A stretch of DNA of 64,000 nucleotides from Ephemerocybe angulata (lineage: Eukaryota > Basidiomycota > Agaricomycetes > Agaricales > Psathyrellaceae): contig JAACJK010000219.1 of assembly GCA_013368325.1 (NCBI GenBank), forward strand, positions 62,001-126,000, written 5' to 3'. The position numbers and the translations under genes were made by a program. The notes below the pieces were generated by a model that was given only the letters and a program-made list of their open reading frames with translations, was not told where the DNA came from and ran no database searches. Shown piece after piece: positions 17,501-60,206 of the stretch. Every line of letters starts with the position of its first letter. The first letter of the stretch is position 1.

Positions 17501-17529
17501 GAAAGTACCTATGAAAGCGAAAATGTAAG

Positions 17530-18591
17530 ATGGCCGGTAAAATCGACTTGTTTTTCGGCTATCGGGTCGACGATGGGATCTGGGAGATTGAGGCCGTGCT
17601 TCAAATGGTCCATGGGTTCGACATATGGGAAACGCAGATGCCACATGCCTGCGCACGGTCCAGGTCAGTAATTTCCTTTTCCAGTGCTAGGGTTCGAGGA
17701 CTTTCCAAAAGTCCTCGAACCCTAGCACTGGAAAAGGAAATTCTGAGCCTGGTCTGTGCGCGGTCAGAGTTGGCGCAGCGGCAGGCGCGAATGCTTGAGT
17801 TCAATTCCCGCGTATGCCAATATTCAGCTGGCCGAAAATGCGGGCGCCTAAGATTTGGACGTCCAAATTTCGACACGATGCCTTCGACCTCGCTGAAGTC
17901 CGCAGGGCTTTGAGCCTGCGGCATTTTATAACATCATATTCCTTGCCTCGCCAGCCCATTCTTCTCAGTTTCAAGCATAGAACAAGCATAGAAACACTAA
18001 GTACCTGCATGCCAAACAAAGGTAAAGGGAAATTTGGACAGCCATAAATCCTGACGCCCCACAGGCCACAACGGTTGCTGCTAGTTTTGCAAGCACCTGA
18101 TGTACACTGCCAAAGTGGTGTCTAAGTTGTAGACCTATGGTGGTCAGGTACATAGCACTCAGGAGTCAGAGAACTAGAAAATGGACCTTAGTTAAGATTG
18201 TGAATCTCGATTGCATTGGACACTATCCAAACCGAGCAGCAAGCTCTAAATTCTTGGATGATGGACCTTGACAAGTGTCAAGATCTTGATATCAGCATCA
18301 ATAATTTGTCAATAATTGCGGCTTATATTTTGATTATATTCTGCTGATTTTAAGCTTTCGATGCTTTCGTGCGCCCTTGGGACCCGGAGGTGAATTGAAC
18401 GCGACTGCCCAGCGCCAACACGCGTCTGCACGTGTCGAGTTATGTTTGCCTATGTAAGCAATGTTGGGCCCCTAACTCTGTGGGGCAGGCAGCTATGGTT
18501 TCGACACGACGTCTCACAATGCGCATTGTGAACCCCTAGAGTCAGACATCTATTGCCAGCAACACTTGACCCAGACTACCACAGGACAACC
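17530..18591. other. 5' non-coding part of the element
   Basis: About 1 kb between the element end and the nuclease start. An open frame at 17530-17913 runs through the hairpin and is not convincing as a gene. At 17770-17820 there are bases resembling tRNA promoter boxes (TGGCGCAGCGG and GTTCAATTCC), but they are too close together for a tRNA. The rest is AT-rich (18170-18350) and probably carries the nuclease promoter. Confidence 0.4.
17670..17742. repeat. perfect 35-base hairpin inside the element, left copy
   Basis: Two arms of 35 bases (17670-17704 and 17708-17742) are exact reverse complements around a 3-base loop, CCA. Pairing continues imperfectly outward to about 17651 and 17762 (GCGCAC...CCAGG...CAG on both sides). 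The identical hairpin is in the right copy. It lies about 170 bases from the element end, a place where recombinase or accessory-protein sites would be expected; function is inferred. Confidence 0.85.
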
Positions 18592-20596
18592 ATGGGCATC
18601 AGTAAATTATGGGAGGTAAGCCAAATCTACACTTTTTCATGGTATCCACAGTACTCTGACAAGTTTCGAATGAAGGCACTTCGCCCGGCAGCAGACGTAC
18701 AATCATTCTCAGAGCTCATTACCTCCGATGCTCTCACCCGCCGCATGAACGGCGAGAGTCTACCCATAATCGGAGTTGATGCGAGGTGCGTGCCGGGATT
18801 TATGTGATATTGTGCCCTAGCTGACCCCACGTTCCCAGTCCCCTCATGTACGCTGCAAAGGCAGCCGCTGCCAATAAAGCGCGTGAAATAAACTCTTGTA
18901 CACAGATTGGGAGAGAAACTGAGGTGGCTTGTTTGCGCCTGAGCGCTGAGCAGTGGACTCGGCTTCCGGCGCTTATTGTCGTGGTTTTTGATGGGCCACA
19001 GAGGCCCCCGGTCAAGCGGGGCAAGCAAGTTTGGTCCACACAGGTTCATCAGTTGGAGCCGCAGTTCCGTGAGCTGTTGGAGACGATGGGTTTCTATTGT
19101 GAGACGGTATGTTTGGCTGCGCTCTAAGCATGGTATAAAGCTTATTTAACATTCTGAAGGCTCCTGGCGAGGCAGAAGCACACCTTGCTATGCTCAATAA
19201 GACCGGGAAGATTCATTATGTTCTCACCTGTGATAGTGATGTATTTCTCTTTGGGGCAGAGACTGTGATCCGAACGTGAGCTCAGACGGTCAGACCCCTG
19301 GAATGCCTTACTAACACATTGTAGGCCCCATAATTCTGCTAACCGTGATGAAGTTGAGGTATATACTGCCTCCGCCTTGGAGACACATGATGCAGGGCTA
19401 TCGTTGCATGGACTTATACTTATCGCCATATTGGCTGGTGGAGACTATGCCGAGGTGCGTTGAGCTTGGTAGTGTGCATGTTCCTGGAGGATAACTAACA
19501 TATCTAATTCTCTTAGGGAGTAATGTCGTTTGAACTGGCAAGGAAACTAGCTCGCACATCATTGGCATTCGAGCTATACATCATCATCCAGACCGAAACC
19601 CCTTTAGAACATGACCCGGCTGTCTCGATGTATCACTGGCGTAAGGCTCTTCGAGCCGAACTGGTTCGGGGCACCCGAATTGGGCGCCGCGCACTATCCG
19701 TTGCAGCCAAGCTCCCGGAAGTGTTTCCCAGTTCCGACTTAGTGGGACTCTATGTTAACCCAGTAGTGGGCCCAAGCGACAACTCAGGTGCAGCTGATTG
19801 GGCTGTTCAGCTGCCGAATTCTGCGGCTATCACTCGCCTTGCGTCGGTGGGCTTCCGATGGAGCTGGACAAGGACCGTGGATTTCCTTCGTGAAGTTTGG
19901 GCTGGGTGCATCCTGCACCACTTCTTAACAGTGTGTATTCATTCTCTCTCATGCTATAACTCTCTTATAATTAAATAGGGTCACATTGAGAATGAAGCTG
20001 GTGAGGCATGCCCTCGCTGCCTTGATCCCAATGATCCGTATATCATCCACTTTGGGACATCGGATGGGAATTTGGACTCGGAGCATCCAGCAGCACTCAC
20101 TTGTCGTATCCGTATTGGGATAAGACATGTTGAGTCTGCTGTGGTGTCAGCTTGGCGTGAGCTGAATGGCCACGAGGCTGCGCCTAACCATGTCAAAGCT
20201 ACAGGCACCATTCTCATCACGCTCCCTGCGCTGGTCGTCCTTTTTGGAGCTCCCGAGCTGGTTGATCGCCATTGCGCCCCATCTCCATTAAGCCGTGTCC
20301 TCTTTCATCAGTGCATACGCTACATGAAATTGCTTCGGGAAGAGGAGGAGGTGGCTTTGACTAGCACGGATGAAGAAACACATGAGGTATGTTGGTCTAT
20401 TCATTCTCACTAGCTACTGTTGCTCATCGTCTTCACGTATGATTTAATGCAGGTTATACTTGACTTCTCCAGCCCTGGTTCTCCCGTGCAGTATGCTGTT
20501 ACACGGCATGGCACAGAAGCCGAAGTTATTTCGCTCCTTGGCTTTGGAGTTCCGCCTAGTTCAGGGTCGTGTTATTTTCATTTTTGCAATCTGTAA
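18592..20596 (+). CDS. XPG/Rad2/FEN1-family structure-specific nuclease
   Basis: Eight exons (18592-18615, 18652-18785, 18839-19106, 19160-19275, 19325-19454, 19517-19930, 19979-20386, 20453-20596) join in phase to 545 codons plus stop. The start MGISKLWE is the classic XPG N-terminus, where Gly2 becomes the mature end. All seven metal-binding acidic residues of the family are visible: D51 (IGVDAS), D104 (VVVFDGPQRP), E146 and E148 (APGEAEAHLAMLN), D167 and D169 (LTCDSDVFLFG) and D221 (LAGGDYAEG). Such enzymes cut flaps or Holliday junctions in DNA. The C-terminal 320 residues after the XPG-I core match nothing I know. The gene is carried in the mobile element 7.5 kb upstream of the recombinase, with the retrotransposon between them. 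This copy looks intact. Its role in transposition is inferred. Confidence 0.88.
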
Positions 20597-20645
20597 TGCA
20601 TTTTGTGCTATTGTAACATGTATTTGTAACGCTTTAATTAATTGA

Positions 20646-20650
20646 CATAT
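20646..20650. repeat. target-site duplication CATAT, left side
   Basis: CATAT precedes the left LTR and recurs directly after the right LTR (27861-27865). The unoccupied site with a single CATAT is preserved in the right element copy (39230-39234, reverse strand). Confidence 0.95.
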
Positions 20651-21200
20651 TGTCGTGAACACCGGTCAGCCTACCTATTTTCTCTTCTTTTCCTTTCACT
20701 TCCTCCTTTACTATTCATTCGTGCGCATTCCTGCACACTCTTGCACACCTTTGCACATCCTTGCACACCTTCACACTGCCTTCGCTCTTCTGAGCCTTCC
20801 CCTCACTTCATGCACAGCATGTTCGTGCTTCTTATTCTCGTGCACAGCACGTTCACACCTTGTTCACACCTTTGTTCTCAGGCGCACTGCCCGCGCGCTG
20901 CCTTTTAGTCATATCGACTCATATGGACTCTATTGTTCTTTGGATCATTCTATTGTTCTATTTTCATTCGAGATCATCTGGACACATATATACTCGTAGC
21001 TACTCGTTCATTATTCCCCACTTGATCTCTTTGACTATACAGGTACATAGTCGCTTTGCTCCTATTCCCTGTATCCTATTTACCTTTGACTATACAGCTC
21101 TTGTATCTGCATCGCTGCTCATCGCTCGTCCGACCTCTGCTCCTCTGCTCTCTGCTCTCTGCTCGTCGCTCGTCCGACATCAGCCGGCGTCTTCGCCACA
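20651..21200 (+). repeat. 5' LTR
   Basis: 550 bases beginning TGTCGTGAACACC and ending CTTCGCCACA. Line by line it is identical to the 3' LTR. It contains a run of TTGCACACC-like units (20728-20778) and GCTC-rich repeats near the 3' end. I see no clear tRNA primer-binding match directly after it. Confidence 0.95.
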
Positions 21201-21648
21201 TTAGATCAAGTCCTCCCAACTGCGCCGACGTCCATCGTCCTCGCAGCCCCTGCTAGCCGGCACCATCGCGCCCACCCGTTCCCCCTCACCTGCAACCTCT
21301 GACGGCTCTGAACCGGACAGCTGTGCACCGTACCTTCACGGCCTACAGATCGACTCCGCCTACCTCCGATCCACCACTGATCCAGTCTGGTCCTCAGTCT
21401 ACTGGTACATCGACCGGAACGGCTCGACTGTCTACACCGACTGCGCAGAACAACCCTGCCCCCACGCTAAGGAAACCCAGGATTCCATCCCAGGCTTCTA
21501 CCTCTCTGGCCTTCGTGGAGAACTAGTCCTACCACTAGTCCCACAGTACCTGCACCCTACCAGCCCGCCTAGTCGCGTCCCACCCCCATCGTCACCACCG
21601 CCGCCGTACTCTCCGAAGCTCCCCGACTACCCAAGTCCACCTCCTGCC

Positions 21649-22920
21649 ATGTCAGATGATCGCATCGAAGCCCTCTTCGAGAGGCTCATAGAAGCCCAGA
21701 CAAAGACCAACGACCAGTTGACCGCGCTGGCCGCAGCTCAAAACCAAGCCCGATCTGCACCTGCACCTGTTCCAGCCACCAACACCACCCAGGTTGGGGC
21801 TGTCAATGTGTCCACCGGCTCCAGTATGGCTCGCCCGGAGCCTTTCAAGGGAGGTTCCGCCGACGCCCGGCGATTCCTCCAGTACTACACCATGTGGGCC
21901 CGATCGAAGGAAGCTCCCCTCAACAAGCTCAACACTACCACCGGCTTCCACGAGATCGCTCCCGAGCAGTGGATCATCCATGCCCTCTCGCTCTTGCAGG
22001 GGGAAGCCGCGATATGGGCCGTCCGCTACCTCCAAGACATCGAGGCCCATGCCACCACCCAAGCTGCTGCTGCAGCCGCTACCGCAGCCAACCAGACCGC
22101 TGTCCCCGTCACCCCTTTCCCCTTCAGCGGATCGTGGGACGAGTTCGTCAAGGCCTTCAAGGCCCGCTTCATGGCCTCGGACGACAACGCCGAAGCCCAG
22201 AGGGAGCTCGAGTCCATCACCCAGGGCAACAAGACGGTTGCGCAGTACGCAGCGCGCTTCCAGGAGGTCTCCGGACGCACGGACTACTCCGAGTCGGACC
22301 TTGGCCATCGCTTCAAGCAGGGCCTCTCCAAGGACGCCCGTGCCTGGCTGACCATGGCCTCCTTCGCCAAAGCACCCGCCACCTTCGAGGAGCTTGTCCA
22401 GCTCGCTGTCAAGGTTGACTTCCACATGCGCGATAGCATGGCGGAAGGCCCTCGTACCAAGGGTTCCACTGCCTACTCCCCTCCCACTGCTGCTCGCGAC
22501 CCCTACGCCATGGATGTCGACGCTAGTCGAAGCTCGACGGCTCGCACCCGCGAAGACTTCACCAAGCTCATGCGAGGTCGCTGCTACGGGTGTGGCTCCA
22601 AGGCCCACCTGAAGTCGGCAGGAGGACACGAGGCCACCAAGTGTGGATACTGCGCCCGCATCGGGCACATCGAGGCTGTCTGCCAGGACAAGTACCTAGG
22701 CAACGAGAAAGGCCGAGGAGCCCGACGCTCCCAGAAGGCAGCTGCCACGACCAGCGACACCCCCTTCACCCTCTTCCCAGGCGAGACCTCTGCCCCCAAC
22801 ATCTCGTCCCCTGCCCCTTCGACGACGCCCGAGGACCCTAGGTTCACACGCCTAGAGGCTGCCCTCGCCGAGCAGAACCGTCTCTTTGGGCTCCTCGCCA
22901 ACGACAAGCCGGGTTTTTGA
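21649..22920 (+). CDS. retrotransposon Gag
   Basis: 423 codons from ATG 21649 to TGA 22918-22920. The body resembles gypsy Gag (FKGGSADARRFLQYY, WAVRYLQDI, FKARFMASDDNAEAQRELES). Near the C-terminus there is a zinc knuckle of the form C-X2-C-X4-H-X4-C (CGYCARIGHIEAVC), preceded by a second Cys-rich stretch (CYGCGSKAH). It forms the particle and binds element RNA in the family. The gene appears intact; Pol follows in the -1 frame. Confidence 0.92.
   Translation: MSDDRIEALFERLIEAQTKTNDQLTALAAAQNQARSAPAPVPATNTTQVGAVNVSTGSSMARPEPFKGGSADARRFLQYYTMWARSKEAPLNKLNTTTGFHEIAPEQWIIHALSLLQGEAAIWAVRYLQDIEAHATTQAAAAAATAANQTAVPVTPFPFSGSWDEFVKAFKARFMASDDNAEAQRELESITQGNKTVAQYAARFQEVSGRTDYSESDLGHRFKQGLSKDARAWLTMASFAKAPATFEELVQLAVKVDFHMRDSMAEGPRTKGSTAYSPPTAARDPYAMDVDASRSSTARTREDFTKLMRGRCYGCGSKAHLKSAGGHEATKCGYCARIGHIEAVCQDKYLGNEKGRGARRSQKAAATTSDTPFTLFPGETSAPNISSPAPSTTPEDPRFTRLEAALAEQNRLFGLLANDKPGF
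22911..22917 (+). promoter_or_regulatory. probable -1 ribosomal frameshift site between gag and pol
   Basis: The gag frame ends G GGT TTT TGA. GGGTTTT fits the X XXY YYZ slippery pattern and is directly followed by the gag stop. A -1 slip there continues straight into the pol frame, which has no convincing ATG start. The heptamer is seen; its use is inferred. Confidence 0.6.
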
Positions 22921-25900
22921 AGCGGGTGCCCGTCCGTGCTGCCGCACGCGTACCCATCGCTATGTGTTCCACCTCCTCCTATGACTCCATCTCATCATGT
23001 ACCATTAGTTCTATTCGTGAAATCGATCCCACTTCAGACCATTTCCGAGTACGAACAACATTGAGAGGTCGCAACAGGAGCACTAGCTCAGCAGCCATGA
23101 TAGATTGTGGGGCTACCGCCCTCTTTCTTGACCACCCCTTTGTCCTAAAGCATCACATCACAACCTTCCCGCTCCGTCACCCCATCCTCCTTCGCAACAT
23201 TGATGGCTCCCCAAACACCGCCGGGGACATCACCCACTTTGCACGTCTTCACCTCACGGTCGGACCCCACAACCGCTGGACAGACTTTCTTGTCACCGAC
23301 CTAGGAGGCGAGAACATCATCCTGGGACTCCCCTGGCTTCGCCAGGTTAACCCAGAGATTGACTGGACAAAGGGTATCGTGCGCATCAACCCCCGAGCCA
23401 CCATCGAGGATGTTCCGGAGGACCCGAACCCGAGCCATGCTCTGGGGGAACCGTCCAACGGATCTATCCTGGAAGAGATCTATGCCTCGAGTGCACCCCC
23501 AGACCCCATCACATCTGTTCCAGAGCTCCTACCTTCACGCCGTCATCCCCGTGCCTCAGTAGAGGAGGTGCCGGAGGAAAGACATCCGTGTTTGGACTTA
23601 GGGGAACCCTCTGACGGAGCGATTCTGGAGGAGATCTACGCCTCCTGGCCCTCGCTCCCCAGCTCTCCAACTCCTGAACCTACCCCACCGTCGCCGCCCC
23701 CTCCTGTGGAAGAGAAGCCCGAAACACCCTTCTGCCGAATCCGTGCTAACCGAACGACTCGACGCCGCTGGCTTCGAGCTGGCATCATCGAGCGCACGGA
23801 TGAGGAACTGTGGTGTTCGGCTGGCTTCACCTACTCCCAGAAGATCGCTGAGGACGCGAAGAAAGGTAAACCGGAGAGAACCCTCGATGAGATCATCCCC
23901 GCCCACTACCGAGAACACGCCGCTGTCTTTTCTGAACAAGAGTCTACTCGCCTGCCGAGCCACAAGGACTGGGATCACGCCATCGAGCTCACGCCTGGTG
24001 CCCCAGCCAACATCCGCACCAAGATCTACCCCATGTCCCTAGATGAACAAGCCGTGCTCGACACGTTCCTCCAGGAGAACCTCGCCAAAGGATACATCTA
24101 GCCCTCCAAGTCGCCCATCTCCTCCCCTGTTTTCTTCATCAAGAAGAAGGACGGAACTCTCCGCTTCATCCAGGACTACCGCCGTCTCAACGAGTACACC
24201 ATCAAGAATCGCTACCCGCTCCCTCTTGTCGCCGACATCATCAGCCGTCTTCGAGGTGCCAAATACTTCACCAAGTTTGACGTCCGCTGGGGATACAACA
24301 ACGTCCACATAAAGGAGGGAGATGAATGGAAAGCTGCGTTCGCTACTAGCCGAGGCCTCTTCGAACCCAAAGTCATGTTTTTCGGTCTAACCAACTCACC
24401 TGCCACATTCCAGGGCCTCATGAACTCGATCTTCTCAGATCTGGTCGCCTCCGGCAAGGTGGCGGTCTACCTCGACGACATCCTCATCTTCACCATGGAC
24501 CTGGAAGAACACCGCCGCATCACCCATGAAGTCCTTCGTCGTCTCCGACAGCACGACCTCTACCTGCGTCCTGAGAAGTGTGAGTTTGAGAAGGAGGAGA
24601 TCGAGTATCTGGGTATGGTTATCCGAGAGGGAGAGGTGAGCATGGACCCCGCCAAGGTCCAAGCCGTCCGTGGCTGGCCTGTACCGCGCAACGTCCGCGA
24701 AGTCCGAGGATTCCTGGGCTTCGCCAACTTCTACCGCCGCTTCATCAAGGACTTCTCCAAGGTGGCTCGCCCCCTCCATGACCTCACCAAGAAGAACACC
24801 CTGTTCGAATGGACTGACGAGCGTCAGCAAGCCTTCGAAACCCTCTGTGACGCCTTCATCTCTGCCCCTGTCCTCGCCCTCTGGGATCCTGACCGCCCCA
24901 CTCGCATCGAAGTCGACGCCTCTGGCTTTGCCACCGGAGGTTCCCTTCTTCAGCAAGCTGCCGATGGCGCCTGGCACCCTGTTGCCTTCCGATCAGCGTC
25001 CATGGACCCAGCTCAGCGAAACTACGAGATCTACAACCGGGAGATGCTAGCCATCATCGAAGCCCTCAAGGACTGGCGCCCGTTCCTGGAAGGTCTCCCT
25101 GACACCTTCGGGATCGTAACTGATCATGCTAACCTGAAGTATTGGCGCACTGCCCAAGATCTGGCACGACGACAGGCGAGATGGGCTCTATACCTCTCTC
25201 GCTTCGACTTCCGTCTCGAACACCGCCCGGGTGCTGCTAACACCCAAGCTGACCCCCTCTCGCGCATGCCCCATCATCATGTCTCAGACTCTGACAATAA
25301 CACCCAACGCACGGTTCTCCGCCCTGAACACTTCGCCAAACTCGCTGCTGCTTCCCATTTCACTAATCCCCTGGAAGACCGAATTCGTCGCGCGAGTGCA
25401 CGCGAATCTGTGGTCTTGGGAGGGCTAGAGAAGCTGCGCAAGTTCGGACCCCAGAAACTCGTCAACGGGTTGACAGAGTGGACAGAGGAGAACGGGTTAG
25501 TACGGTTCAGAGGCAAGGTATACGTCCCAGCAGACGATGAGCTCCGGCGAGAGGTGGTGAAGCAGTGCCACGACGACCCCACTTCAGGCCATCCTGGGAA
25601 CCATGCAACCCTCGAACGGGTCGAGCGGTTGTACTGGTGGCCCACGATGCACGCTTTTGTGAAGAAGTACGTCGAAGGCTGCGATCTCTGTGCTCGACGC
25701 AAGCATGCCCAACACCCTCGTGCCCTCACCCAGCCCATGGACGTCCCTGAAGGCCCTTGGGAGGCTGTTGGAGTTGACCTCATCACACAGCTACCACCTG
25801 CCCACGGTTTCGACGCAGTCATCGTCTTCACCGACTTCTTCACCAAGCAGATCCACGCACTCCCCTGTTCCTCCACCATCTCGACTGAAGGAGTCGTCGA

Positions 25901-27276
25901 CATCTACTACCGAGAGATCTTCCGCCTCCATGGTTTGCCCCTTCGTTTCATCAGCGACCGAGGGCCCCAGTTCGCCTCCAACGTCATGCGCACCCTCCTC
26001 CAACGTCTCGGGATTGGATCCAACCTCACAACAGCATACCACCCTCAGGCCAACGGCCAGACTGAGCGCGCAAACCAGGAAGTCGAGAAGCACCTTCGCT
26101 TCTATGTCAGTCGACGACAAGACGATTGGGACCAGCACCTCCCCATGGCTGAGTTCGTCATCAACTCCCGCATTCACTCTGCTCATAATCGCTCCCCCTT
26201 CGAGGTCATCTACGGCTACTCCCCCCACTTCAACATTCCCATTGGCGCTACCACCGGTGTCCGTGGTGTTGATGAACGCATTCGCAAGGGTGGTCTGGTC
26301 TTTATCAAAGAGACCTAGGGTCAGAAAATCTGGTAAGGCCTGGCTGGGCTGGACTAACTAACTACGTAAGCGCCAAGACCACCAAAAAAGGCAATTCTAT
26401 TACATAATTCTGCGATCCGCGTGATCTATCGGCCAATCCCGCTCAGTCCGGGCACTTGCAGATTCAACTGGAGCTCAGCAGAAGTGATATCTGATATATA
26501 ATAACCAATATTTTCGCTGAAAAAGGGGTATAACATATCTGTATTACATCTGTATAACTATATAAATAGTCAAAGGACACTATGGAAGCCCAAAATGGCC
26601 TAAAATACCCCAATTTTAGGGTTTCAAAGGGGGGGTCCAACAAATTTTTTCCAGCCTGGCGGCTGGACTAACTAAGTAACGTCCGGTCAGAAATTTAAAG
26701 ACCAGGCCACCCTTGCGCATTCGGGACCTCCTTGACACCCGAAAGGACGTTGAAGCAGCCTTACGGATGGAGAAAGCCCGCCAGAAGACAACCTTCGAAG
26801 CTGGGAAGCGGACAGCACACGCCTTCGTCGTAGGCGACTACGTCTGGCTCAGCGCCAAGAACATCAACATCAAGGTGCCCACTCGAAAGCTTGGAGACTT
26901 CCAGCTCGGCCCCTACAAGGTCCTCGAGAAGGTCGGCGACCTTGACTACCGTCTCGCACTCCCTCAGTCCCTATCCCGTCTCCATCCTGTCTTCCACGTC
27001 GATAAGCTTAGTCCCTGGAAAGGGAACGACACCAATGGCATCCTACCTCCCCCACCAGAGCCTGTTGAACTCGAGGACGGGACAGAGTTTGAAGTCCAGG
27101 ACGTTCTGGACAGTAGGGAGGTCAAGCGCGGACGAAAGCGCTGGGTCGAATACCTCATCAGCTGGAAGGGCTACAACGACAGCGAGAACTCTTGGGAACC
27201 CCTCGCCAACCTTGGGAACGCAGCTGAAGCCGTTGCGGAGTTCCACCTTCGACACCCCACGGCACCCCGACCATAG
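22917..27276 (+). pseudogene. retrotransposon Pol, broken by a TAG and a MITE
   Basis: Frame 22917-24101 codes the aspartic protease (MIDCGATALFLDHPF). It ends at a TAG (24099-24101), after which the same frame codes reverse transcriptase (DYRRLNEYTIKNRYPLPL; YLDDILIF), RNase H (EVDASGFATGGSLL) and integrase (HDDPTSGHPGNHATLERV; CDLCARRKHA; AYHPQANGQTERANQEVE). At 26285 the MITE interrupts. After it, from 26716, the frame resumes with the integrase C-terminus and a chromodomain ([20 protein letters not shown]). The MITE plus its duplication adds 439 bases, so it also shifts the frame. The protease reads DCGA rather than the usual D-S/T-G. Two independent lesions mean this copy cannot make full Pol. 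Confidence 0.92.
26285..26715. mobile_element. hAT-type MITE inside pol
   Basis: 431 bases with imperfect terminal inverted repeats: CAAGGGTGGTCTGGTCTTTA at the left, and the right end read in reverse starts CAAGGGTGGCCTGGTCTTTA. Inner parts also pair (GGACTAACTAAC versus GTTAGTCC). It is flanked by the 8-base direct repeat CGCATTCG (26277-26284 and 26716-26723). Eight-base duplications and CAAGGG-like ends are hAT hallmarks. It has no coding capacity, so it needed a transposase in trans. Confidence 0.93.
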
Positions 27277-27310
27277 TCATCGAGGACGATGAGTTCTAGG
27301 AGGGGGGTAA

Positions 27311-27860
27311 TGTCGTGAACACCGGTCAGCCTACCTATTTTCTCTTCTTTTCCTTTCACTTCCTCCTTTACTATTCATTCGTGCGCATTCCTGCACACTC
27401 TTGCACACCTTTGCACATCCTTGCACACCTTCACACTGCCTTCGCTCTTCTGAGCCTTCCCCTCACTTCATGCACAGCATGTTCGTGCTTCTTATTCTCG
27501 TGCACAGCACGTTCACACCTTGTTCACACCTTTGTTCTCAGGCGCACTGCCCGCGCGCTGCCTTTTAGTCATATCGACTCATATGGACTCTATTGTTCTT
27601 TGGATCATTCTATTGTTCTATTTTCATTCGAGATCATCTGGACACATATATACTCGTAGCTACTCGTTCATTATTCCCCACTTGATCTCTTTGACTATAC
27701 AGGTACATAGTCGCTTTGCTCCTATTCCCTGTATCCTATTTACCTTTGACTATACAGCTCTTGTATCTGCATCGCTGCTCATCGCTCGTCCGACCTCTGC
27801 TCCTCTGCTCTCTGCTCTCTGCTCGTCGCTCGTCCGACATCAGCCGGCGTCTTCGCCACA
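27311..27860 (+). repeat. 3' LTR
   Basis: Identical over 550 bases to 20651-21200 and followed by the CATAT duplication at 27861-27865. Confidence 0.95.
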
Positions 27861-27865
27861 CATAT

Positions 27866-28092
27866 GCTCTCCTGTTTAGATTGCATGTAGGCTGTCAGTT
27901 CGGGGTTCGGGACTCGGTACGCTCAGGGTCAAAGCGCTAGCATTGAGTGAATCGCAACATGATCGGGACACGTCCTGCAATAGGGGCAAGACTCCACAAT
28001 CGTACTGAGTCTCAGCCAAGCGCGTAGCACCCTCGAGTCACCATCTACCAGCACGGTACAAGCCCTCACACACGCCTACCTTTTCTGTTAGC
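27866..28092 (+). other. 5' flank of the recombinase gene
   Basis: About 230 bases of element sequence continuing from the retrotransposon target site. One run of C differs from the right copy (three here after GTAGCA, five there). It probably holds the promoter of the recombinase; nothing more specific is seen. Confidence 0.4.
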
Positions 28093-30791
28093 ATGGGCGT
28101 TTCCTCTCTTCAGTCTACGGCACGCCAAGGCGGGCGCGGGAAGAAGCGCGTCCAGGAAAAGGTGATCCCATCATACACAGACGCGGAGCGCGGCACCTAC
28201 GACGCAGCCAAGAAAGCTTCCAAAGCGAAGACAACTCTCAACAAGTATAGCCTCTATTGGAGTCAACTATTAACCTGGGTAGACCAGGTATCATCTGCAG
28301 AGAATGCGAAGGCCAAAGCATTCTCTTCTCGCCAGGATGAGGCTGCATCAAATCCCGCCGAAGACCCGGACAACGACATTGATGACGAGTTGGACCCTAG
28401 TGCAGCTGAAATGCCCGAGGACTTTGAGAAGACTGCAATGGATGCCAGGTTTCCTACATGCCTCATTGACGAGCCTACTGAGTGCACCACAACGGCGATG
28501 GCAATGTTTTTATGGGACAAAGTATATCTCGGAAAGCTGAGCGTGAGCACAGCTGATCAGATTGCTGCGTCTTTTATTGCTGAGTATGATGCACGGTGAG
28601 TCCAATGTGCTATCTTATCTTCTCACCTAATTTTTGAGGACATAGATCAACACCCCATGGGTTCATATACAAAGGAACCTGGCGCTTTGATGAATTTGCT
28701 CGGGCGTTCCGAGGGAACCCCGGCTGCAGTGACCGTGTTAAGCAAGTGCTGAATGCTATCAAGAAGAGAGAAGATCAGCCTGTGCGGAAGCACTCTCGTG
28801 CCATGTCCTACGACGACATGGTGGCCATTCATGATACCATCAAATCCACTTGCCCCCCTCCTGATCTCGTCGACAAGCCATCCCTGGCCAAATGAGGGGA
28901 ATATCTTTATTACTCGGCCTTCTCGGCTTTGGGGTTTGTAATTTGGACAAGGTATGTCCCCGACCGTGCTCAGATATGTTGGCTAAAGGATGTGTATTTA
29001 CCAAATATTCATGTACTAGGAATAACGAAGCCCGTAAGCTGCAGCTCAAGCACCTCGACTTCAACCCGCCAGCAAAGCGGTGCTCGAATGGCAGACTGTG
29101 TGAGCGCATCGTTGTCAATTTACGATTCAGGAAGAATTGGCAGAGGAAGTTGGATAGTGAGGAGCTCGGAGTGGAAGGTAAGCGCCCGCCACCAAGACTT
29201 CGTGATGTTATTGTCTGCAATTGTACTAACGACTTTGTATAGGCCATGTTTACAATGTCTATCGGCACCCAAACAAGCCGGCCATAGATCTCTTCCACCA
29301 CCTCACTGAATGGAAGGAGTACTATGCGAAACACCTCCTCCGTCGCCCACTCGAAGATGAAGACTATCTATTCCCTGCCATCAACTTTCACAACCTCACC
29401 ATAAATCCCGACACACCAGTTACCCGCCAAGCTGTTGACAAATTAATCAAAGAAATGGCTGCAGCTGCCGGACTACCAAAGCCTGACGCGTACACAACTC
29501 ACTGTTTTCGCCGGGGAGGCGCTCAATATAGGTTTATGTTTGCACCGATCGGAGAACGGTGGACAATGGCACGCATCCGATGGTGGGGAGGGTGGGCTGA
29601 AAATGAAACAGTACGTGTTCTTAGCCAGGGTTCAATCAGGCGAGTTGGACTAACTCACGAAACTTATCTTAGGGTGATACACTGATACATTACCTCCTCG
29701 ATGAGCTTCACGCCTACGAGGAGGATCATTCCGATGCACTTTGCCCAATTGACGAGTCGGCCAATCGCTCGCATATGGGCGAAGACCGCCTCCTCCGCCC
29801 GTTCACAGCTGCAGATGGGCAGGCTCTCACTAAACAGTGCAGCGAGCACATCTCGAAGGAGTTTTCTCTGCTAAAGGAGTCTATATCTGAGTGCATGGTT
29901 GAGTATCTAAAGGTTGGTGTGAATACCACGCAGCAGTACTACATGCTGGATGGTGCAACACATCGCCCTTGCCACTGCGCACATGGTCAGTAAAGATTTC
30001 CTTCATTCTCTCAATGCATTCAAGTTGCTTACTTATTCAACCTCAGACGCATCCTGCATGAGTGCCGCCGCCATCGCGCCACATGTGCCGTACATGCCCT
30101 ATCACCCCCCTACGCAATCCGCACCCACTCCTCACTACCAGCTCGGTGGTATCGCATTTACTAGCGACCAGCATTCAATTGCGCCCCAACAGCACAGTGT
30201 AAGCCAAACACTTTGGCCACCAGCTTCTACCAATCAGCAGCCGGCTTATTACCATAATCCTGGCTTTCGCCCACCCCGATCCACCCCTCCTGTTCGCTTC
30301 CAGCCTATTATACGGCCACCTTCAACTTCATCGGCACCTCCCAATCCGTTGCCCATGCCGTCGGGTCCCAGGTGCTGCGTTCCGAAGATACCGCGCTCCG
30401 CCGGCCCAAACGCGGTGAAAATCATCTTGAAGGACTGGGAGACGCCTCAGCCCGGTCGGTGTCCTGTGCCAATGAAAGACTGGGATAAATCTTGGTACGA
30501 GGAGAACAATCAGGCATCGGCGTACCACATTCGTCGAGTTATTGCGACAGAGTACATTGACAGGTGCGTTAACCGTTGTTCCTTGGTTACTCAATTTAAA
30601 CCTTGATATTCAGATTCAAACGGAACGAAGAAGAGTTCAGGAAGGCGTACCCAGATCATACGCGTGGTATGACACCTCTCTTCAAGGCAATAGTCGAAGC
30701 GCGTCAATCTAGAGATGAGGCCAAAACAAGGGCGAAGAAACATAAGTTCACGACCGGTGCAGGTTGCGGCAACGCTGACCCCAACTCGTAG
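28093..30791 (+). pseudogene. tyrosine recombinase with GCR1_C-like tail (Crypton type), in-frame TGA, left copy
   Basis: Seven exons (28093-28595, 28646-28951, 29020-29177, 29243-29610, 29673-29985, 30047-30563, 30614-30791) join in phase to 781 codons. Catalytic residues fit the tyrosine recombinase set: R270 (WTRNNEARKLQLKHLDF), H409 and R412 (THCFRRGG), W440 (RWWGGWAEN) and Tyr nucleophile Y452 (TLIHYLLDEL). A Pro-rich linker leads to a C-terminal domain (NAVKIILKDWETPQPG; WYEENNQASAYHIRR) resembling GCR1_C, the DNA-binding domain of fungal Cryptons. Codon 251 is TGA (28893-28895) inside LAK-stop-GEYLYYS, where Trp would fit; no intron of normal size removes it. The same TGA is in the right copy. 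The stop precedes every catalytic residue, so the enzyme needs read-through or a helper copy. Confidence 0.82.
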
Positions 30792-31296: not shown

Positions 31297-31892
31297 CTAA
31301 GCGAGATGAACCTGCCAAGTTTTCAAAATCCGTTGTCACGGTTGCAACAGACAGAAATGGTTAGCAACGTTCGGCATGTATGATACAAGGAAAGATGTGT
31401 GCGTACCTTTGTATGAGCCCCCCGGTTAGTGTTCAGCTGGTGGGCAAGGCGCAACTTCCAACCTTGCAAATGATAGTGGTACACGGAATCCGGATGCACC
31501 ATCCACCAGTGCGTCTGCTCGCTGATCTCATTGCACGTTCCCTGCAGCCCGGCAGCCCAAATGTCACCCGAAATGGCCAAAGCGCACACAAGGCATCTCT
31601 ATGGCAGGCTTCTGGTGACCCGAGGTTGGGTTTGTGGGTTCCTAATAGAATTGAATAGAATCCTGGGTTCAAGGGAAAACTCACCATGGTCGAGATACCC
31701 CAAGTCCGCCGTCCATGACCCATCATCACCATGGCCCATCCTCCCTCTGAGCACCTTGAGTATCCTGTGTAGAGGAGATTCCGGCGAGTACACGAAAGCG
31801 GGAGGAGAGAACGCGTCGTTAATTGACGCGTTCGCGAAAAGGGAGCGAGATGATTGCCAATTCTCTGCCAGGCTGGCAGAGATCTTATGCAC
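31297..31892 (-). CDS. small protein of unknown function in the mobile element, left copy
   Basis: From ATG 31892 the first exon codes MHKISASLAENWQSSRSLFA and runs to GSWTADLG. A second exon has good protein character (SGDIWAAGLQGTCNEISEQT, HWWMVHPDSVYHYH, QGWKLRLAHQLNTNRGAHTK), followed by an intron (GTACGC...GCAG) and a last short exon ending at the stop at 31297. The join between exons 1 and 2 is uncertain; GTATCT...GAG gives a phase match. The protein would be about 150 residues, with no signal peptide or membrane segment. I do not recognise it. It is convergent with the recombinase and identical in the other element copy. Confidence 0.45.
31863..31881. repeat. subterminal inverted repeat
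   Basis: CTCTGCCAG and CTGGCAGAG pair around one central base, about 200 bases from the element end. The following 31895-31945 has repeated TAGATTA units, including GATAAGTAG, which resembles the element terminus GGATAAGT. These could be recombinase-binding sites; that is inference. Confidence 0.5.
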
Positions 31893-32078
31893 GTGATAGA
31901 TTAGATAAGTAGATTAGATTACATCAGTGATTAGATTGCCACCGAGGCTCCCAAATCGGGATGGCAAACGTCATCGCCCAGGGTCCCGACCAGCGGCGTT
32001 CCAGCCGGACGTGCCGGTGGTAGGCGCGGTGATGGCTGCCAAACCGAGCACCAGCCGCCTAAAATCTCGCGGATAAGT

Positions 32079-35014: not shown

Positions 35015-35200
35015 ACTTATCCGCGAGATTTTAGGCGGCTGGTGCTCGGTTTGGCAGCCATCACCGCGCCTACCACCGGCACGTCCGGCTGGAACGCCGC
35101 TGGTCGGGACCCTGGGCGATGACATTTGCCATCCCGATTTGGGAGCCTCGGTGGCAATCTAATCACTGATGTAATCTAATCTACTTATCTAATCTATCAC

Positions 35201-35796
35201 GTGCATAAGATCTCTGCCAGCCTGGCAGAGAATTGGCAATCATCTCGCTCCCTTTTCGCGAACGCGTCAATTAACGACGCGTTCTCTCCTCCCGCTTTCG
35301 TGTACTCGCCGGAATCTCCTCTACACAGGATACTCAAGGTGCTCAGAGGGAGGATGGGCCATGGTGATGATGGGTCATGGACGGCGGACTTGGGGTATCT
35401 CGACCATGGTGAGTTTTCCCTTGAACCCAGGATTCTATTCAATTCTATTAGGAACCCACAAACCCAACCTCGGGTCACCAGAAGCCTGCCATAGAGATGC
35501 CTTGTGTGCGCTTTGGCCATTTCGGGTGACATTTGGGCTGCCGGGCTGCAGGGAACGTGCAATGAGATCAGCGAGCAGACGCACTGGTGGATGGTGCATC
35601 CGGATTCCGTGTACCACTATCATTTGCAAGGTTGGAAGTTGCGCCTTGCCCACCAGCTGAACACTAACCGGGGGGCTCATACAAAGGTACGCACACATCT
35701 TTCCTTGTATCATACATGCCGAACGTTGCTAACCATTTCTGTCTGTTGCAACCGTGACAACGGATTTTGAAAACTTGGCAGGTTCATCTCGCTTAG
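35201..35796 (+). CDS. small protein of unknown function in the mobile element, right copy
   Basis: Exact mirror of 31297-31892, identical in the stretches I compared. It begins MHKISASLAENWQSSRSLFA, and its second exon contains ISEQTHWWMVHPDSVYHYH. Preservation in both copies says little about selection because the copies are so young. Confidence 0.42.
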
Positions 35797-36301
35797 GGCC
35801 TCATAAATCTCAAAATTATTCATCCTATCTACCGGTGAGTCAGGGATTGCATATGCCACCTGCACTGAATGCTAAAAAAACCGTTCAGGAACATGTAGAC
35901 CATTTTATATGTAGAGCTCGGACCTGGAATATGACCCACCATTGCTCGCTGAATGCCCACCCGCAATACACACCCTTCCATGATATCGGTCTCAATGCTG
36001 CATGCATCTGCATGTGCTTTTGGTGCGTTGTGTATTTTCTTGAATGTATAAGCTATAGTGGCCTCTTTCTTGAACTCGGCGTCATGCTCGCAGCGGATGC
36101 ACATAGGGATCTAACCCAGAGGTCCCAGTGCATCGGCTTCGAGCATGGTTTCCGTTCTTGTCTAGGAGGCCACAGCTCGGCCCACCACTGTGCCATGTTC
36201 TATGCTGCGCGTGCAAGTTCTATTGCAATATCTAACTACTACAAGAAAGAAAGCACGTCAGCGCATACCGGTCGGACAACCAGCTGTGGCCCAAGGTGAG
36301 T

Positions 36302-39000
36302 CTACGAGTTGGGGTCAGCGTTGCCGCAACCTGCACCGGTCGTGAACTTATGTTTCTTCGCCCTTGTTTTGGCCTCATCTCTAGATTGACGCGCTTCGAC
36401 TATTGCCTTGAAGAGAGGTGTCATACCACGCGTATGATCTGGGTACGCCTTCCTGAACTCTTCTTCGTTCCGTTTGAATCTGAATATCAAGGTTTAAATT
36501 GAGTAACCAAGGAACAACGGTTAACGCACCTGTCAATGTACTCTGTCGCAATAACTCGACGAATGTGGTACGCCGATGCCTGATTGTTCTCCTCGTACCA
36601 AGATTTATCCCAGTCTTTCATTGGCACAGGACACCGACCGGGCTGAGGCGTCTCCCAGTCCTTCAAGATGATTTTCACCGCGTTTGGGCCGGCGGAGCGC
36701 GGTATCTTCGGAACGCAGCACCTGGGACCCGACGGCATGGGCAACGGATTGGGAGGTGCCGATGAAGTTGAAGGTGGCCGTATAATAGGCTGGAAGCGAA
36801 CAGGAGGGGTGGATCGGGGTGGGCGAAAGCCAGGATTATGGTAATAAGCCGGCTGCTGATTGGTAGAAGCTGGTGGCCAAAGTGTTTGGCTTACACTGTG
36901 CTGTTGGGGCGCAATTGAATGCTGGTCGCTAGTAAATGCGATACCACCGAGCTGGTAGTGAGGAGTGGGTGCGGATTGCGTAGGGGGGTGATAGGGCATG
37001 TACGGCACATGTGGCGCGATGGCGGCGGCACTCATGCAGGATGCGTCTGAGGTTGAATAAGTAAGCAACTTGAATGCATTGAGAGAATGAAGGAAATCTT
37101 TACTGACCATGTGCGCAGTGGCAAGGGCGATGTGTTGCACCATCCAGCATGTAGTACTGCTGCGTGGTATTCACACCAACCTTTAGATACTCAACCATGC
37201 ACTCAGATATAGACTCCTTTAGCAGAGAAAACTCCTTCGAGATGTGCTCGCTGCACTGTTTAGTGAGAGCCTGCCCATCTGCAGCTGTGAACGGGCGGAG
37301 GAGGCGGTCTTCGCCCATATGCGAGCGATTGGCCGACTCGTCAATTGGGCAAAGTGCATCGGAATGATCCTCCTCGTAGGCGTGAAGCTCATCGAGGAGG
37401 TAATGTATCAGTGTATCACCCTAAGATAAGTTTCGTGAGTTAGTCCAACTCGCCTGATTGAACCCTGGCTAAGAACACGTACTGTTTCATTTTCAGCCCA
37501 CCCTCCCCACCATCGGATGCGTGCCATTGTCCACCGTTCTCCGATCGGTGCAAACATAAACCTATATTGAGCGCCTCCCCGGCGAAAACAGTGAGTTGTG
37601 TACGCGTCAGGCTTTGGTAGTCCGGCAGCTGCAGCCATTTCTTTGATTAATTTGTCAACAGCTTGGCGGGTAACTGGTGTGTCGGGATTTATGGTGAGGT
37701 TGTGAAAGTTGATGGCAGGGAATAGATAGTCTTCATCTTCGAGTGGGCGACGGAGGAGGTGTTTCGCATAGTACTCCTTCCATTCAGTGAGGTGGTGGAA
37801 GAGATCTATGGCCGGCTTGTTTGGGTGCCGATAGACATTGTAAACATGGCCTATACAAAGTCGTTAGTACAATTGCAGACAATAACATCACGAAGTCTTG
37901 GTGGCGGGCGCTTACCTTCCACTCCGAGCTCCTCACTATCCAACTTCCTCTGCCAATTCTTCCTGAATCGTAAATTGACAACGATGCGCTCACACAGTCT
38001 GCCATTCGAGCACCGCTTTGCTGGCGGGTTGAAGTCGAGGTGCTTGAGCTGCAGCTTACGGGCTTCGTTATTCCTAGTACATGAATATTTGGTAAATACA
38101 CATCCTTTAGCCAACATATCTGAGCACGGTCGGGGACATACCTTGTCCAAATTACAAACCCCAAAGCCGAGAAGGCCGAGTAATAAAGATATTCCCCTCA
38201 TTTGGCCAGGGATGGCTTGTCGACGAGATCAGGAGGGGGGCAAGTGGATTTGATGGTATCATGAATGGCCACCATGTCGTCGTAGGACATGGCACGAGAG
38301 TGCTTCCGCACAGGCTGATCTTCTCTCTTCTTGATAGCATTCAGCACTTGCTTAACACGGTCACTGCAGCCGGGGTTCCCTCGGAACGCCCGAGCAAATT
38401 CATCAAAGCGCCAGGTTCCTTTGTATATGAACCCATGGGGTGTTGATCTATGTCCTCAAAAATTAGGTGAGAAGATAAGATAGCACATTGGACTCACCGT
38501 GCATCATACTCAGCAATAAAAGACGCAGCAATCTGATCAGCTGTGCTCACGCTCAGCTTTCCGAGATATACTTTGTCCCATAAAAACATTGCCATCGCCG
38601 TTGTGGTGCACTCAGTAGGCTCGTCAATGAGGCATGTAGGAAACCTGGCATCCATTGCAGTCTTCTCAAAGTCCTCGGGCATTTCAGCTGCACTAGGGTC
38701 CAACTCGTCATCAATGTCGTTGTCCGGGTCTTCGGCGGGATTTGATGCAGCCTCATCCTGGCGAGAAGAGAATGCTTTGGCCTTCGCATTCTCTGCAGAT
38801 GATACCTGGTCTACCCAGGTTAATAGTTGACTCCAATAGAGGCTATACTTGTTGAGAGTTGTCTTCGCTTTGGAAGCTTTCTTGGCTGCGTCGTAGGTGC
38901 CGCGCTCCGCGTCTGTGTATGATGGGATCACCTTTTCCTGGACGCGCTTCTTCCCGCGCCCGCCTTGGCGTGCCGTAGACTGAAGAGAGGAAACGCCCAT
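36302..39000 (-). pseudogene. tyrosine recombinase with GCR1_C-like tail, in-frame TGA, right copy
   Basis: Mirror of 28093-30791 with the same exon layout and the same catalytic residues (THCFRRGG, RWWGGWAEN, TLIHYLLDEL). The TGA at codon 251 is at 38200-38198. No difference from the left copy was noticed in the coding exons. The shared stop means it arose before the copies diverged. Confidence 0.82.
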
Positions 39001-39283
39001 GCTAACAGAAAAGGTAGGCGTGTGTGAGGGCTTGTACCGTGCTGGTAGATGGTGACTCGAGGGGGTGCTACGCGCTTGGCTGAGACTCAGTACGATTGTG
39101 GAGTCTTGCCCCTATTGCAGGACGTGTCCCGATCATGTTGCGATTCACTCAATGCTAGCGCTTTGACCCTGAGCGTACCGAGTCCCGAACCCCGAACTGA
39201 CAGCCTACATGCAATCTAAACAGGAGAGCATATGTCAATTAATTAAAGCGTTACAAATACATGTTACAATAGCACAAAATGCA

Positions 39284-41287
39284 TTACAGATTGCAAAAAT
39301 GAAAATAACACGACCCTGAACTAGGCGGAACTCAAAAGTCAAGGAGCGAAATAACTTTGGCTTCTGTGCCATGCCGTGTAACAGCATACTGCACGGGAGA
39401 ACCAGGGCTGGAGAAGTCAAGTATAACCTGCATTAAATCATACGTGAAGACGATGAGCAACAGTAGCTAGTGAGAATGAATAGACCAACATACCTCATGT
39501 GTTTCTTCATCCGTGCTAGTCAAAGCCACCTCCTCCTCTTCCCGAAGCAATTTCATGTAGCGTATGCACTGATGAAAGAGGACACGGCTTAATGGAGATG
39601 GGGCGCAATGGCGATCAACCAGCTCGGGAGCTCCAAAAAGGACGACCAGCGCAGGGAGCGTGATGAGAATGGTGCCCGTAGCTTTGACATGGTTAGGCGC
39701 AGCCTCGTGGCCATTCAGCTCACGCCAAGCTGACACCACAGCAGACTCAACATGTCTTATCCCAATACGGATACGACAAGTGAGTGCTGCTGGATGCTCC
39801 GAGTCCAAATTCCCATCCGATGTCCCAAAGTGGATGATATACGGATCATTGGGATCAAGGCAGCGAGGGCATGCCTCACCAGCTTCATTCTCAATGTGAC
39901 CCTATTTAATTATAAGAGAGTTATAGCATGAGAGAGAATGAATACACACTGTTAAGAAGTGGTGCAGGATGTACCCAGCCCAAACTTCACGAAGGAAATC
40001 CACGGTCCTTGTCCAGCTCCATCGGAAGCCCACCGACGCAAGGCGAGTGATAGCCGCAGAATTCGGCAGCTGAACAGCCCAATCAGCTGCACCTGAGTTG
40101 TCGCTTGGGCCCACTACTGGGTTAACATAGAGTCCCACTAAGTCGGAACTGGGAAACACTTCCGGGAGCTTGGCTGCAACGGATAGTGCGCGGCGCCCAA
40201 TTCGGGTGCCCCGAACCAGTTCGGCTCGAAGAGCCTTACGCCAGTGATACATCGAGACAGCCGGGTCATGTTCTAAAGGGGTTTCGGTCTGGATGATGAT
40301 GTATAGCTCGAATGCCAATGATGTGCGAGCTAGTTTCCTTGCCAGTTCAAACGACATTACTCCCTAAGAGAATTAGATATGTTAGTTATCCTCCAGGAAC
40401 ATGCACACTACCAAGCTCAACGCACCTCGGCATAGTCTCCACCAGCCAATATGGCGATAAGTATAAGTCCATGCAACGATAGCCCTGCATCATGTGTCTC
40501 CAAGGCGGAGGCAGTATATACCTCAACTTCATCACGGTTAGCAGAATTATGGGGCCTACAATGTGTTAGTAAGGCATTCCAGGGGTCTGACCATCTGAGC
40601 TCACGTTCGGATCACAGTCTCTGCCCCAAAGAGAAATACATCACTATCACAGGTGAGAACATAATGAATCTTCCCGGTCTTATTGAGCATAGCAAGGTGT
40701 GCTTCTGCCTCGCCAGGAGCCTTCAGAATGTTAAATAAGCTTTATACCATGCTTAGAGCGCAGCCAAACATACCGTCTCACAATAGAAACCCATCGTCTC
40801 CAACAGCTCACGGAACTGCGGCTCCAACTGATGAACCTGTGTGGACCAAACTTGCTTGCCCCGCTTGACCGGGGCCTCTGTGGCCCATCAAAAACCACGA
40901 CAATAAGCGCCGGAAGCCGAGTCCACTGCTCAGCGCTCAGGCGCAAACAAGCCACCTCAGTTTCTCTCCCAATCTGTGTACAAGAGTTTATTTCACGCGC
41001 TTTATTGGCAGCGGCTGCCTTTGCAGCGTACATGAGGGGACTGGGAACGTGGGGTCAGCTAGGGCACAATATCACATAAATCCCGGCACGCACCTCGCAT
41101 CAACTCCGATTATGGGTAGACTCTCGCCGTTCATGCGGCGGGTGAGAGCATCGGAGGTAATGAGCTCTGAGAATGATTGTACGTCTGCTGCCGGGCGAAG
41201 TGCCTTCATTCGAAACTTGTCAGAGTACTGTGGATACCATGAAAAAGTGTAGATTTGGCTTACCTCCCATAATTTACTGATGCCCAT
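39284..41287 (-). pseudogene. XPG/Rad2-type nuclease, broken right copy
   Basis: Mirror of the intact gene at 18592-20596. A C run is one base shorter (four G on the plus strand at 40871-40874, five C in the left copy), shifting the frame directly after the D104 motif FDGPQRP. A second lesion turns GGA into TGA near the C-terminus (39332-39334). A Cys-to-Tyr change (WAGCILHH to WAGYILHH) and a CpG change are also seen. The protein would lose five of its seven catalytic acids. Confidence 0.88.
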
Positions 41288-42133
41288 GGTTGTCCTGTGG
41301 TAGTCTGGGTCAAGTGTTGCTGGCAATAGATGTCTGACTCTAGGGGTTCACAATGCGCATTGTGAGACGTCGTGTCGAAACCATAGCTGCCTGCCCCACA
41401 GAGTTAGGGGCCCAACATTGCTTACATAGGCAAACATAACTCGACACGTGCAGACGCGTGTTGGCGCTGGGCAGTCGCGTTCAATTCACCTCCGGGTCCC
41501 AAGGGCGCACGAAAGCATCGAAAGCTTAAAATCAGCAGAATATAATCAAAATATAAGCCGCAATTATTGACAAATTATTGATGCTGATATCAAGATCTTG
41601 ACACTTGTCAAGGTCCATCATCCAAGAATTTAGAGCTTGCTGCTCGGTTTGGATAGTGTCCAATGCAATCGAGATTCACAATCTTAACTAAGGTCCATTT
41701 TCTAGTTCTCTGACTCCTGAGTGCTATGTACCTGACCACCATAGGTCTACAACTTAGACACCACTTTGGCAGTGTACATCAGGTGCTTGCAAAACTAGCA
41801 GCAACCGTTGTGGCCTGTGGGGCGTCAGGATTTATGGCTGTCCAAATTTCCCTTTACCTTTGTTTGGCATGCAGGTACTTAGTGTTTCTATGCTTGTTCT
41901 ATGCTTGAAACTGAGAAGAATGGGCTGGCGAGGCAAGGAATATGATGTTATAAAATGCCGCAGGCTCAAAGCCCTGCGGACTTCAGCGAGGTCGAAGGCA
42001 TCGTGTCGAAATTTGGACGTCCAAATCTTAGGCGCCCGCATTTTCGGCCAGCTGAATATTGGCATACGCGGGAATTGAACTCAAGCATTCGCTGCCGCTG
42101 CGCCAACTCTGACCGCGCACAGACCAGGCTCAG

Positions 42134-42206
42134 AATTTCCTTTTCCAGTGCTAGGGTTCGAGGACTTTTGGAAAGTCCTCGAACCCTAGCACTGGAAAAG
42201 GAAATT
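42134..42206. repeat. perfect 35-base hairpin inside the element, right copy
   Basis: Same stem and 3-base loop as 17670-17742, read in reverse. Its exact preservation in both copies fits the recent divergence of the copies. Confidence 0.85.
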
Positions 42207-42375
42207 ACTGACCTGGACCGTGCGCAGGCATGTGGCATCTGCGTTTCCCATATGTCGAACCCATGGACCATTTGAAGCACGGCCTCAATCTCCCAGATCC
42301 CATCGTCGACCCGATAGCCGAAAAACAAGTCGATTTTACCGGCCATCTTACATTTTCGCTTTCATAGGTACTTTC

Positions 42376-60196: not shown

Positions 60197-60206
60197 CTTC
60201 GCGAAG
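60197..60206. promoter_or_regulatory. palindrome CTTCGCGAAG upstream of A6, with empty element site
   Basis: 266 bases upstream of the A6 ATG. Directly after it the sequence reads GAAAGCTAATG, the uninterrupted equivalent of the target used by the right mobile element (GAAAGT at one end, AAGTTAATG at the other). Confidence 0.55.

Follow-up and report, generated by a model that had tools for sequence, protein, structure and literature searches.

What does a structure-specific nuclease do in a mobile element that moves by a tyrosine recombinase (YR)? The question is raised by a 64,000-nucleotide stretch of Ephemerocybe angulata DNA (C115:62001-126000 of the 58.7-Mb genome; C-numbers are contig labels that denote loci), here called the window. 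It contains two copies of one unit, bounded by AAGT, that carries an XPG-type nuclease gene followed by a tyrosine recombinase gene. Judged by sequence comparison, the unit is mobile: it has fixed ends, one copy has an empty site, and independent insertions keep the same gene order. We consider it rather probable that it represents a Crypton-like family moving by its tyrosine recombinase at AAGT sites, with a vertically retained GEN1-type nuclease that would resolve junctions.

In a self-comparison of the window, positions 17501-20650 plus 27860-32078 align, inverted, to 35015-42375. The copies are oriented oppositely, 2.9 kb apart, with about 99.9% identity. Over about 7,360 columns they differ by seven substitutions and three indels (3, 1 and 2 bases); an additional 5-base gap is only the CATAT duplication of a retrotransposon. 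Similarity ends at the same base on both sides, and the flanks have nothing in common except GA. This dinucleotide closes both target sites (17501-17502 at the left copy) and is target sequence, alike by chance or preference, so that the element proper starts at AAGT (17503, and 42373 on the minus strand). The alignment thus bears out an earlier sequence-only reading of the window, which had described two copies matching over their whole length, with nothing shared outside and AAGT at both ends. The size of 7.36 kb given there holds for the right copy, but the left copy spans 14.6 kb because a Ty3/Gypsy long terminal repeat (LTR) retrotransposon, foreign to the element, sits inside it, between the two genes. 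The two LTRs of this insertion show one difference in 553 aligned positions.

The flanks of the right copy (32369-35018 and 42371-42477) are continuous in a paralogous segment of the window (62907-60098, 77-79% identical). The paralog junction holds a single GCTT, where the filled site has ACTT. For the left copy, a match spanning its joined flanks was looked for and none was found.

Ends of the same kind recur elsewhere in the genome. The right-end pattern GCCGCCTAAAATCTCGCGGANAAG, with up to three mismatches, has eight matches in 58.7 Mb and none in a reversed control, which is far beyond chance. Six of these lie at loci with both XPG and recombinase genes (C115 twice, C125, C120, C179 and C218), the other two at fragments (C117:3051k and C151). 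Left ends, AAGTACCTA..., were recognised by mutual comparison of C120, C179 and C218. Both ends could be resolved in six of the eight XPG-bearing copies, C117 having a left end only and C207 neither, and each of the six has an identical 4-mer at its two ends with differing flanks: AAGT in five copies, AAGA in C125. From the resolved end coordinates, element lengths are 6.1-9.9 kb. A target CGCG or CGC, which resembles the element's own right end, stands shortly before the left core in the right C115 copy, C120, C218 and C125, and is absent there in the left C115 copy and C179. As to the two fragments, the DNA examined at C117:3051596-3052374 and C151:19207 holds neither XPG nor recombinase, and at the former the end segment forms a tandem pair of which one member is without the final bases.

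Strong cis-acting constraint seems to operate on the right end, since the final 300 or so alignment columns before it are 88-98% identical between C218 and C179 despite saturated synonymous sites in their recombinases (pS 0.82). Inverted recombinase-binding arms were considered and rejected as a general feature: the longest inverted match between the 40-base ends is a perfect 9 bp in C125, and the ends of the other four elements, with 4 bp each, are unremarkable. A subterminal CACGTGAT and repeated GATTAGATTAGAT were noted near the right end (about 35155-35215, minus strand) and also in C120, C179, C218, C42 and C215. They are common even to otherwise diverged recombinase families and are possible candidates for recombinase binding sites.

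Whole-genome search and profile scans of loci yielded at least 17 recombinase loci, of which 15 were examined; two weak matches (C28:478k and C117:3258k) lie outside this set. An XPG gene is found directly upstream of the recombinase, on the same strand, in 8 of the 15: the two window copies, C117, C125, C120, C179, C218 and C207. The XPG gene of C125 is truncated, and C117 is decayed in both genes. At the seven others (C42, C215, C121, C117b, C105, C38 and C220) no XPG gene was found in the 4.6-7.8 kb scanned upstream. XPG genes with no recombinase in the flanks examined occur at C60, C128, C152, C22, C209, C207:290k and C125:2467k, the last two of which look like host genes of GEN1 and Rad2 type. 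The sequence-only reading had proposed to test whether nuclease and AAGT-like ends recur together in independent insertions, and within this same genome they do. Insertions free of the nuclease would have marked it as accidental cargo; yet all six copies with both AAGT-type ends resolved carry the nuclease gene, truncated (C125) or frameshifted (right window copy) in two of them. A second recombinase family, about 5 kb long and without XPG (C121, C117b, C105), has ends of a different kind, with CATTCAG(C/G)ATAAGC on the right; its C117b copy appears by eye to lie inside a non-LTR retrotransposon frame.

The histories of the two genes agree. For seven taxa (C115, C117, C125, C120, C218, C179 and C207), XPG and recombinase trees have identical topology, one of 945 possible unrooted ones, with supports of 98-100 for XPG and 91-100 for the recombinase. 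A larger recombinase tree separates the XPG-bearing loci from C42/C215 (support 98) and from the C121 group (100), and all seven XPG-less loci fall outside the XPG-bearing group; in a larger XPG tree, the element genes come together with a support of 81 only. Sequence comparison indicates purifying selection on XPG. A finite ratio was obtained in five of six comparisons, with dN/dS at 0.135 (C120-C218), 0.182 (C120-C179), 0.115 (C117-C125), 0.172 (C115-C125) and 0.155 (C115-C117), where finite dS values exceed 1.3 and pairs with saturated dS gave no ratio. Recombinase values were 0.047 (C120-C218) and 0.183 (C117-C125). From the shared topology and this selection it follows that the nuclease has long been maintained in working order alongside the recombinase, probably after a single gain or a single loss in the tree. 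With the XPG-less loci outside the group, it is hence a stable second gene and not accidental cargo.

Along the element the XPG gene comes first and the recombinase second; both models were built by hand from GT-AG sites, that for XPG also from homologs. The nuclease was expected to be a structure-specific enzyme of the XPG/Rad2 family within the AAGT-bounded unit, and the left-copy protein indeed contains an XPG_I domain (Pfam E 3.6e-17). It has seven acidic residues, in GVDA, FDG, GEAEA, DSD and GGDY, which we take to be catalytic, and equivalents of these motifs were found in the nucleases of C117, C120, C179, C218 and C207. Exon 3 of the right copy carries a frameshift through the loss of 1 bp near 40875. 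The top match of a PDB sequence search is C. thermophilum GEN1, aligned over residues 92-302 only. This fungal GEN1 also ranks first in a fold comparison with the model of a homolog, P0002; the model matches XPG and FEN1 structures as well, with XPG above human GEN1, and its alignment to GEN1 extends to model residue 409, with low confidence there. The GEN1_C profile has no match in the window nuclease or in P0002 and does match a Mycena homolog, P0004. By sequence and predicted fold, the nuclease thus comes nearest, of the structurally characterised Rad2-family proteins, to GEN1, a Holliday-junction resolvase. Among protein matches to the XPG gene, the best is the public E. angulata gene model P0001, which corresponds to the right copy; it includes part of the frameshifted stretch and continues into the recombinase up to the recombinase stop codon. 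As P0001 fuses XPG with the recombinase start, the element may explain some XPG/PIN-like genes in mushroom annotations.

The recombinase had been described as a tyrosine recombinase with a GCR1_C-like tail. The first part stands on conserved motifs: TRN, HCFRRG, GGW and YLLDE columns are conserved across the aligned relatives in the pattern R...H-x-x-R...W...Y, the labels R, HxxR, W and Y being our assignment. The tail is less secure, as GCR1_C stays below its cut-off (Pfam E 0.15, 12.8 bits against 23, residues 670-727) and had no match in those C-terminal open reading frames (ORFs) of relatives that were scanned. Recombinase matches in Pfam are likewise sub-threshold: DUF3435 gave 11.9 bits (E 0.1; cut-off 25.8) for the window protein and at best 23.7 bits (E 2.8e-5, C117b) for the relatives scanned, and Phage_integrase gave E 0.0018 for relatives, below the Pfam cut-off. 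Pfam and PDB searches with the recombinase returned nothing above threshold. Both window copies share an identical in-frame TGA in exon 2, where C125, C120 and C218 encode Arg. C120 has Q in place of the second Arg (HCFQ vs HCFR; L012:3453-3881), and the C117 recombinase is without the Tyr stretch in the matched DNA. The C120 HCFQ and the window TGA codons would be consistent with C-to-T decay at CpG sites.

Downstream of the recombinase, where the sequence-only reading had placed a small third gene, we find a conserved stem-loop of about 80 nt. The supposed gene had to be given up, as, among the matches listed from a translated comparison with C125, only the stem-loop and the right end appear past the recombinase stop, conserved in several frames at once. 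The 27-nt apical pattern has 15 genome matches (12 exact, two with one mismatch and one with three) and none in a reversed control; it is also matched at C86. A 21-base loop pattern with up to three mismatches gave 18 matches vs 3 in the control. The consensus fold over 13 loci has 20 pairs, seven of them with compensatory changes on both sides, and 95% of cells pair, as against 29-44% for slid partners. A covariation score of 0.229 was not reached in 500 shuffles (mean 0.106), controls that do not remove relatedness; on another covariation measure, further pair types, 80 of 500 shuffles reached the observed value. By eye, G-U wobbles number five cells on the sense strand vs four on the other when the loop-closing pair is excluded, which is G-U on the sense strand in 13 of 13 and may not be a real pair. 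The stem-loop could act either as RNA or as a DNA hairpin.

In 9 of 14 copies examined, the stem-loop follows, on the same strand and at a distance of about 0.1-1.4 kb, the last recombinase match (C115 twice, C120, C125, C179 and C218, plus the XPG-less C105, C121 and C117b). Being present at XPG-less recombinase loci, it tracks the recombinase rather than the nuclease. At C209 it stands upstream of an XPG gene, at C68 and C87 neither gene is present in the DNA examined, and the copies at C146 and C147 have DNA in common with the 3' parts of the recombinase loci C42/C215. It was not seen in the DNA examined at C117, C207, C42, C215, C38 and C220. A known RNA family was rejected as well: Rfam gave no gathering-level match for the stem-loop and only weak microRNA and snoRNA matches below gathering, the best of which is a palindrome elsewhere in the element. 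No exact match was found in IMG/VR or GTDB genomes.

Tyrosine recombinases act through Holliday junctions, which they normally resolve on their own, and GEN1 cuts such junctions. In the mechanism that we favour, the element would be excised as a circle, which the tyrosine recombinase would join to targets that end in AAGT. The element ends would synapse with the target AAGT, and strand exchange would then yield a Holliday junction that spans poorly matched DNA. With little beyond AAGT in common between target and element, branch migration or the second exchange of strands might be hindered. The element-encoded nuclease could then cut the Holliday junction or its branched products, such that integration (or excision) would be finished without a full second YR exchange or a host resolvase. 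The identity of the element is far surer than this role of the nuclease in junction resolution, for which we regard the chances as perhaps evenly balanced. That the nuclease was kept with the recombinase through the history of the family suggests that it helps the element move.

The nuclease might also be kept for repair or replication of the circle or the donor site, processing flaps and gaps and not Holliday junctions. Flap, bubble and gap substrates all fall within the range of the Rad2/XPG family, GEN1_C is unrecognised, and the P0002 model matches XPG and FEN1 with XPG above human GEN1. The first rank of C. thermophilum GEN1 in both sequence and fold comparisons speaks against this role, which we consider distinctly less probable, though flaps may still be among the substrates of a GEN1-like protein. 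As a further option, the nuclease could be selfish or host-directed cargo that has no part in transposition, for example damaging rival elements or improving inheritance. XPG-less YR elements in the same genome and recombinase-less XPG genes (C60, C128, C152, C22 and C209, in the flanks examined) would agree with this, but the nuclease was co-inherited without exchange between lineages in a constant position beside the recombinase, whereas cargo of other elements is usually swapped. Cargo of this kind thus appears unlikely. We would place marginally above it, still as a rather doubtful proposal, a three-part transposon in which a resolvase completes half-done recombination and the stem-loop, as RNA or as a DNA hairpin or cruciform, marks or regulates the element in analogy to attC in integrons. 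If so, the ultraconserved apical loop with its covarying stem would be the recognition site of an element-encoded protein.

An inverted segmental duplication or a gene-converted pair could explain why the copies lie 2.9 kb apart in one paralog cluster and share the same recombinase stop codon. The duplication conflicts with the empty site found for the right copy, with the lack of common flanks and with four further insertions with the same kind of ends and unrelated flanks (C125, C120, C179, C218), and we regard this account as very improbable; gene conversion between the window copies may have taken place after insertion. Least credible of all is that XPG was captured by chance and is decaying. 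The right-copy frameshift and the truncated gene in C125 would fit such decay, but not the dN/dS of 0.115-0.182, a tree matching that of the recombinase, or the seven separate loci.

Among known systems, CryptonF is nearest. Its short 4- or 6-bp terminal direct repeats were proposed as recombination substrates, and Cryptons are thought to leave as circles that recombine a short terminal repeat with the target (passages in PMC3212892, Kojima and Jurka 2011). The same source gives a C48 peptidase as the extra gene of oomycete CryptonF and CryptonS, and its main text has no word beginning with "nuclease". As far as these passages describe it, CryptonF is likewise a fungal tyrosine-recombinase DNA transposon with short direct repeats and without terminal inverted or long direct repeats. 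The window family shares identical 4-bp cores, in six of six copies with both ends known, and has no long terminal inverted repeats; unlike CryptonF it adds a GEN1/XPG nuclease gene and a covarying stem-loop, and GCR1_C is only sub-threshold. Its membership of CryptonF is therefore not fully established. Academ elements rely on a transposase of the DDD/E type and have terminal inverted repeats, and the nuclease of AcademX is of XPG type. The window family resembles AcademX as a transposon that encodes a nuclease but differs by its tyrosine recombinase and AAGT cores; among Pfam matches of the two gene models, the only ones scanned, there is no DDE domain, and the element has no long inverted termini. 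AcademX DNA transposons with a nuclease are named in the part of PMC10045372 that we draw on. Starships, as far as the excerpted text of PMC12134995 goes, are giant, cargo-rich elements of Pezizomycotina. They too are fungal YR elements, and relatives of the window recombinase approach the DUF3435 profile; unlike Starships, the window family is basidiomycete, measures 6-10 kb, has two genes and lacks an above-threshold DUF3435 captain. In comparison with GEN1/Yen1, the best sequence and fold match with which it has the seven acidic residues in common, the window nuclease is transposon-encoded and diverged.

No report of a Crypton with an XPG nuclease was found in the open-licence literature searched, subscription papers and Repbase lying outside the search. 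Nor did this literature yield a paper on a Crypton with a nuclease in Basidiomycota or a relevant one on Cryptons in Agaricomycetes or, among the papers listed, a Crypton with nuclease, resolvase or helicase cargo or anything useful on XPG transposons, on GEN1 with a tyrosine recombinase or on PIN-domain-like Agaricomycetes genes. With a GEN1-type nuclease of its own beside the recombinase, the element opens to direct testing, in a small system of two genes and a 4-bp core, the question of how YR transposons of eukaryotes complete their integration where element and target match poorly. The stem-loop, a sharply defined element in its own right, could be studied separately.

Table 1. Coordinates of the element copies, their genes and associated features in the window.
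Feature	Position	Strand	Remarks
Left element copy, AAGT to AAGT	17503..32078	+	interrupted by Ty3/Gypsy; self-alignment of window
Right element copy, AAGT to AAGT	35015..42373	-	uninterrupted, 7,359 bp; self-alignment; empty site in paralog
Left-end AAGT core, left copy	17503..17506	+	
Right-end AAGT core, left copy	32075..32078	+	
Left-end AAGT core, right copy	42370..42373	-	
Right-end AAGT core, right copy	35015..35018	-	
Conserved right-end motif GCCGCCTAAAATCTCGCGGATAAGT, left copy	32054..32078	+	
Conserved right-end motif, right copy	35015..35039	-	
XPG/GEN1-like gene, left copy	18592..20596	+	8 exons, 537 aa, open frame; hand model
Left XPG exons	18592-18615, 18676-18785, 18839-19106, 19160-19275, 19325-19454, 19517-19930, 19979-20386, 20453-20596		
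XPG/GEN1-like gene, right copy	39284..41287	-	span matching left-copy gene; frameshifted
Tyrosine recombinase, left copy	28093..30791	+	7 exons, 780 codons including in-frame TGA 28893-28895
Tyrosine recombinase, right copy	36302..39000	-	same exons, in-frame TGA 38198-38200
Conserved stem-loop (apical TGGGACCTCTGGGTTAGATCCCTAT), left copy	30939..31018	+	E 1.8e-22 with model R1, which includes the right window copy
Conserved stem-loop, right copy	36075..36154	-	
Ty3/Gypsy LTR retrotransposon between the two genes of the left copy	20651..27860	+	target-site duplication CATAT
Paralogous flank, empty target site of right copy	60098..62907	-	

The insertions lie in a diverged paralogous gene cluster (14232-16596, 43239-45613, 32369-35018 and 60209-62907), whose ORFs show by eye a MYND-finger-like cysteine pattern; three single-exon ORFs had no Pfam match. 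Near the left end of the element, at 17651-17761 and 42115-42225, we noted an inverted repeat that forms a palindrome of about 111 bp, 90% self-complementary. It probably represents a small fold-back repeat that lies nested within the element, and similar sequence (84-87%) is also found at C202 (two places), C110, C162, C112, C18 and C113.

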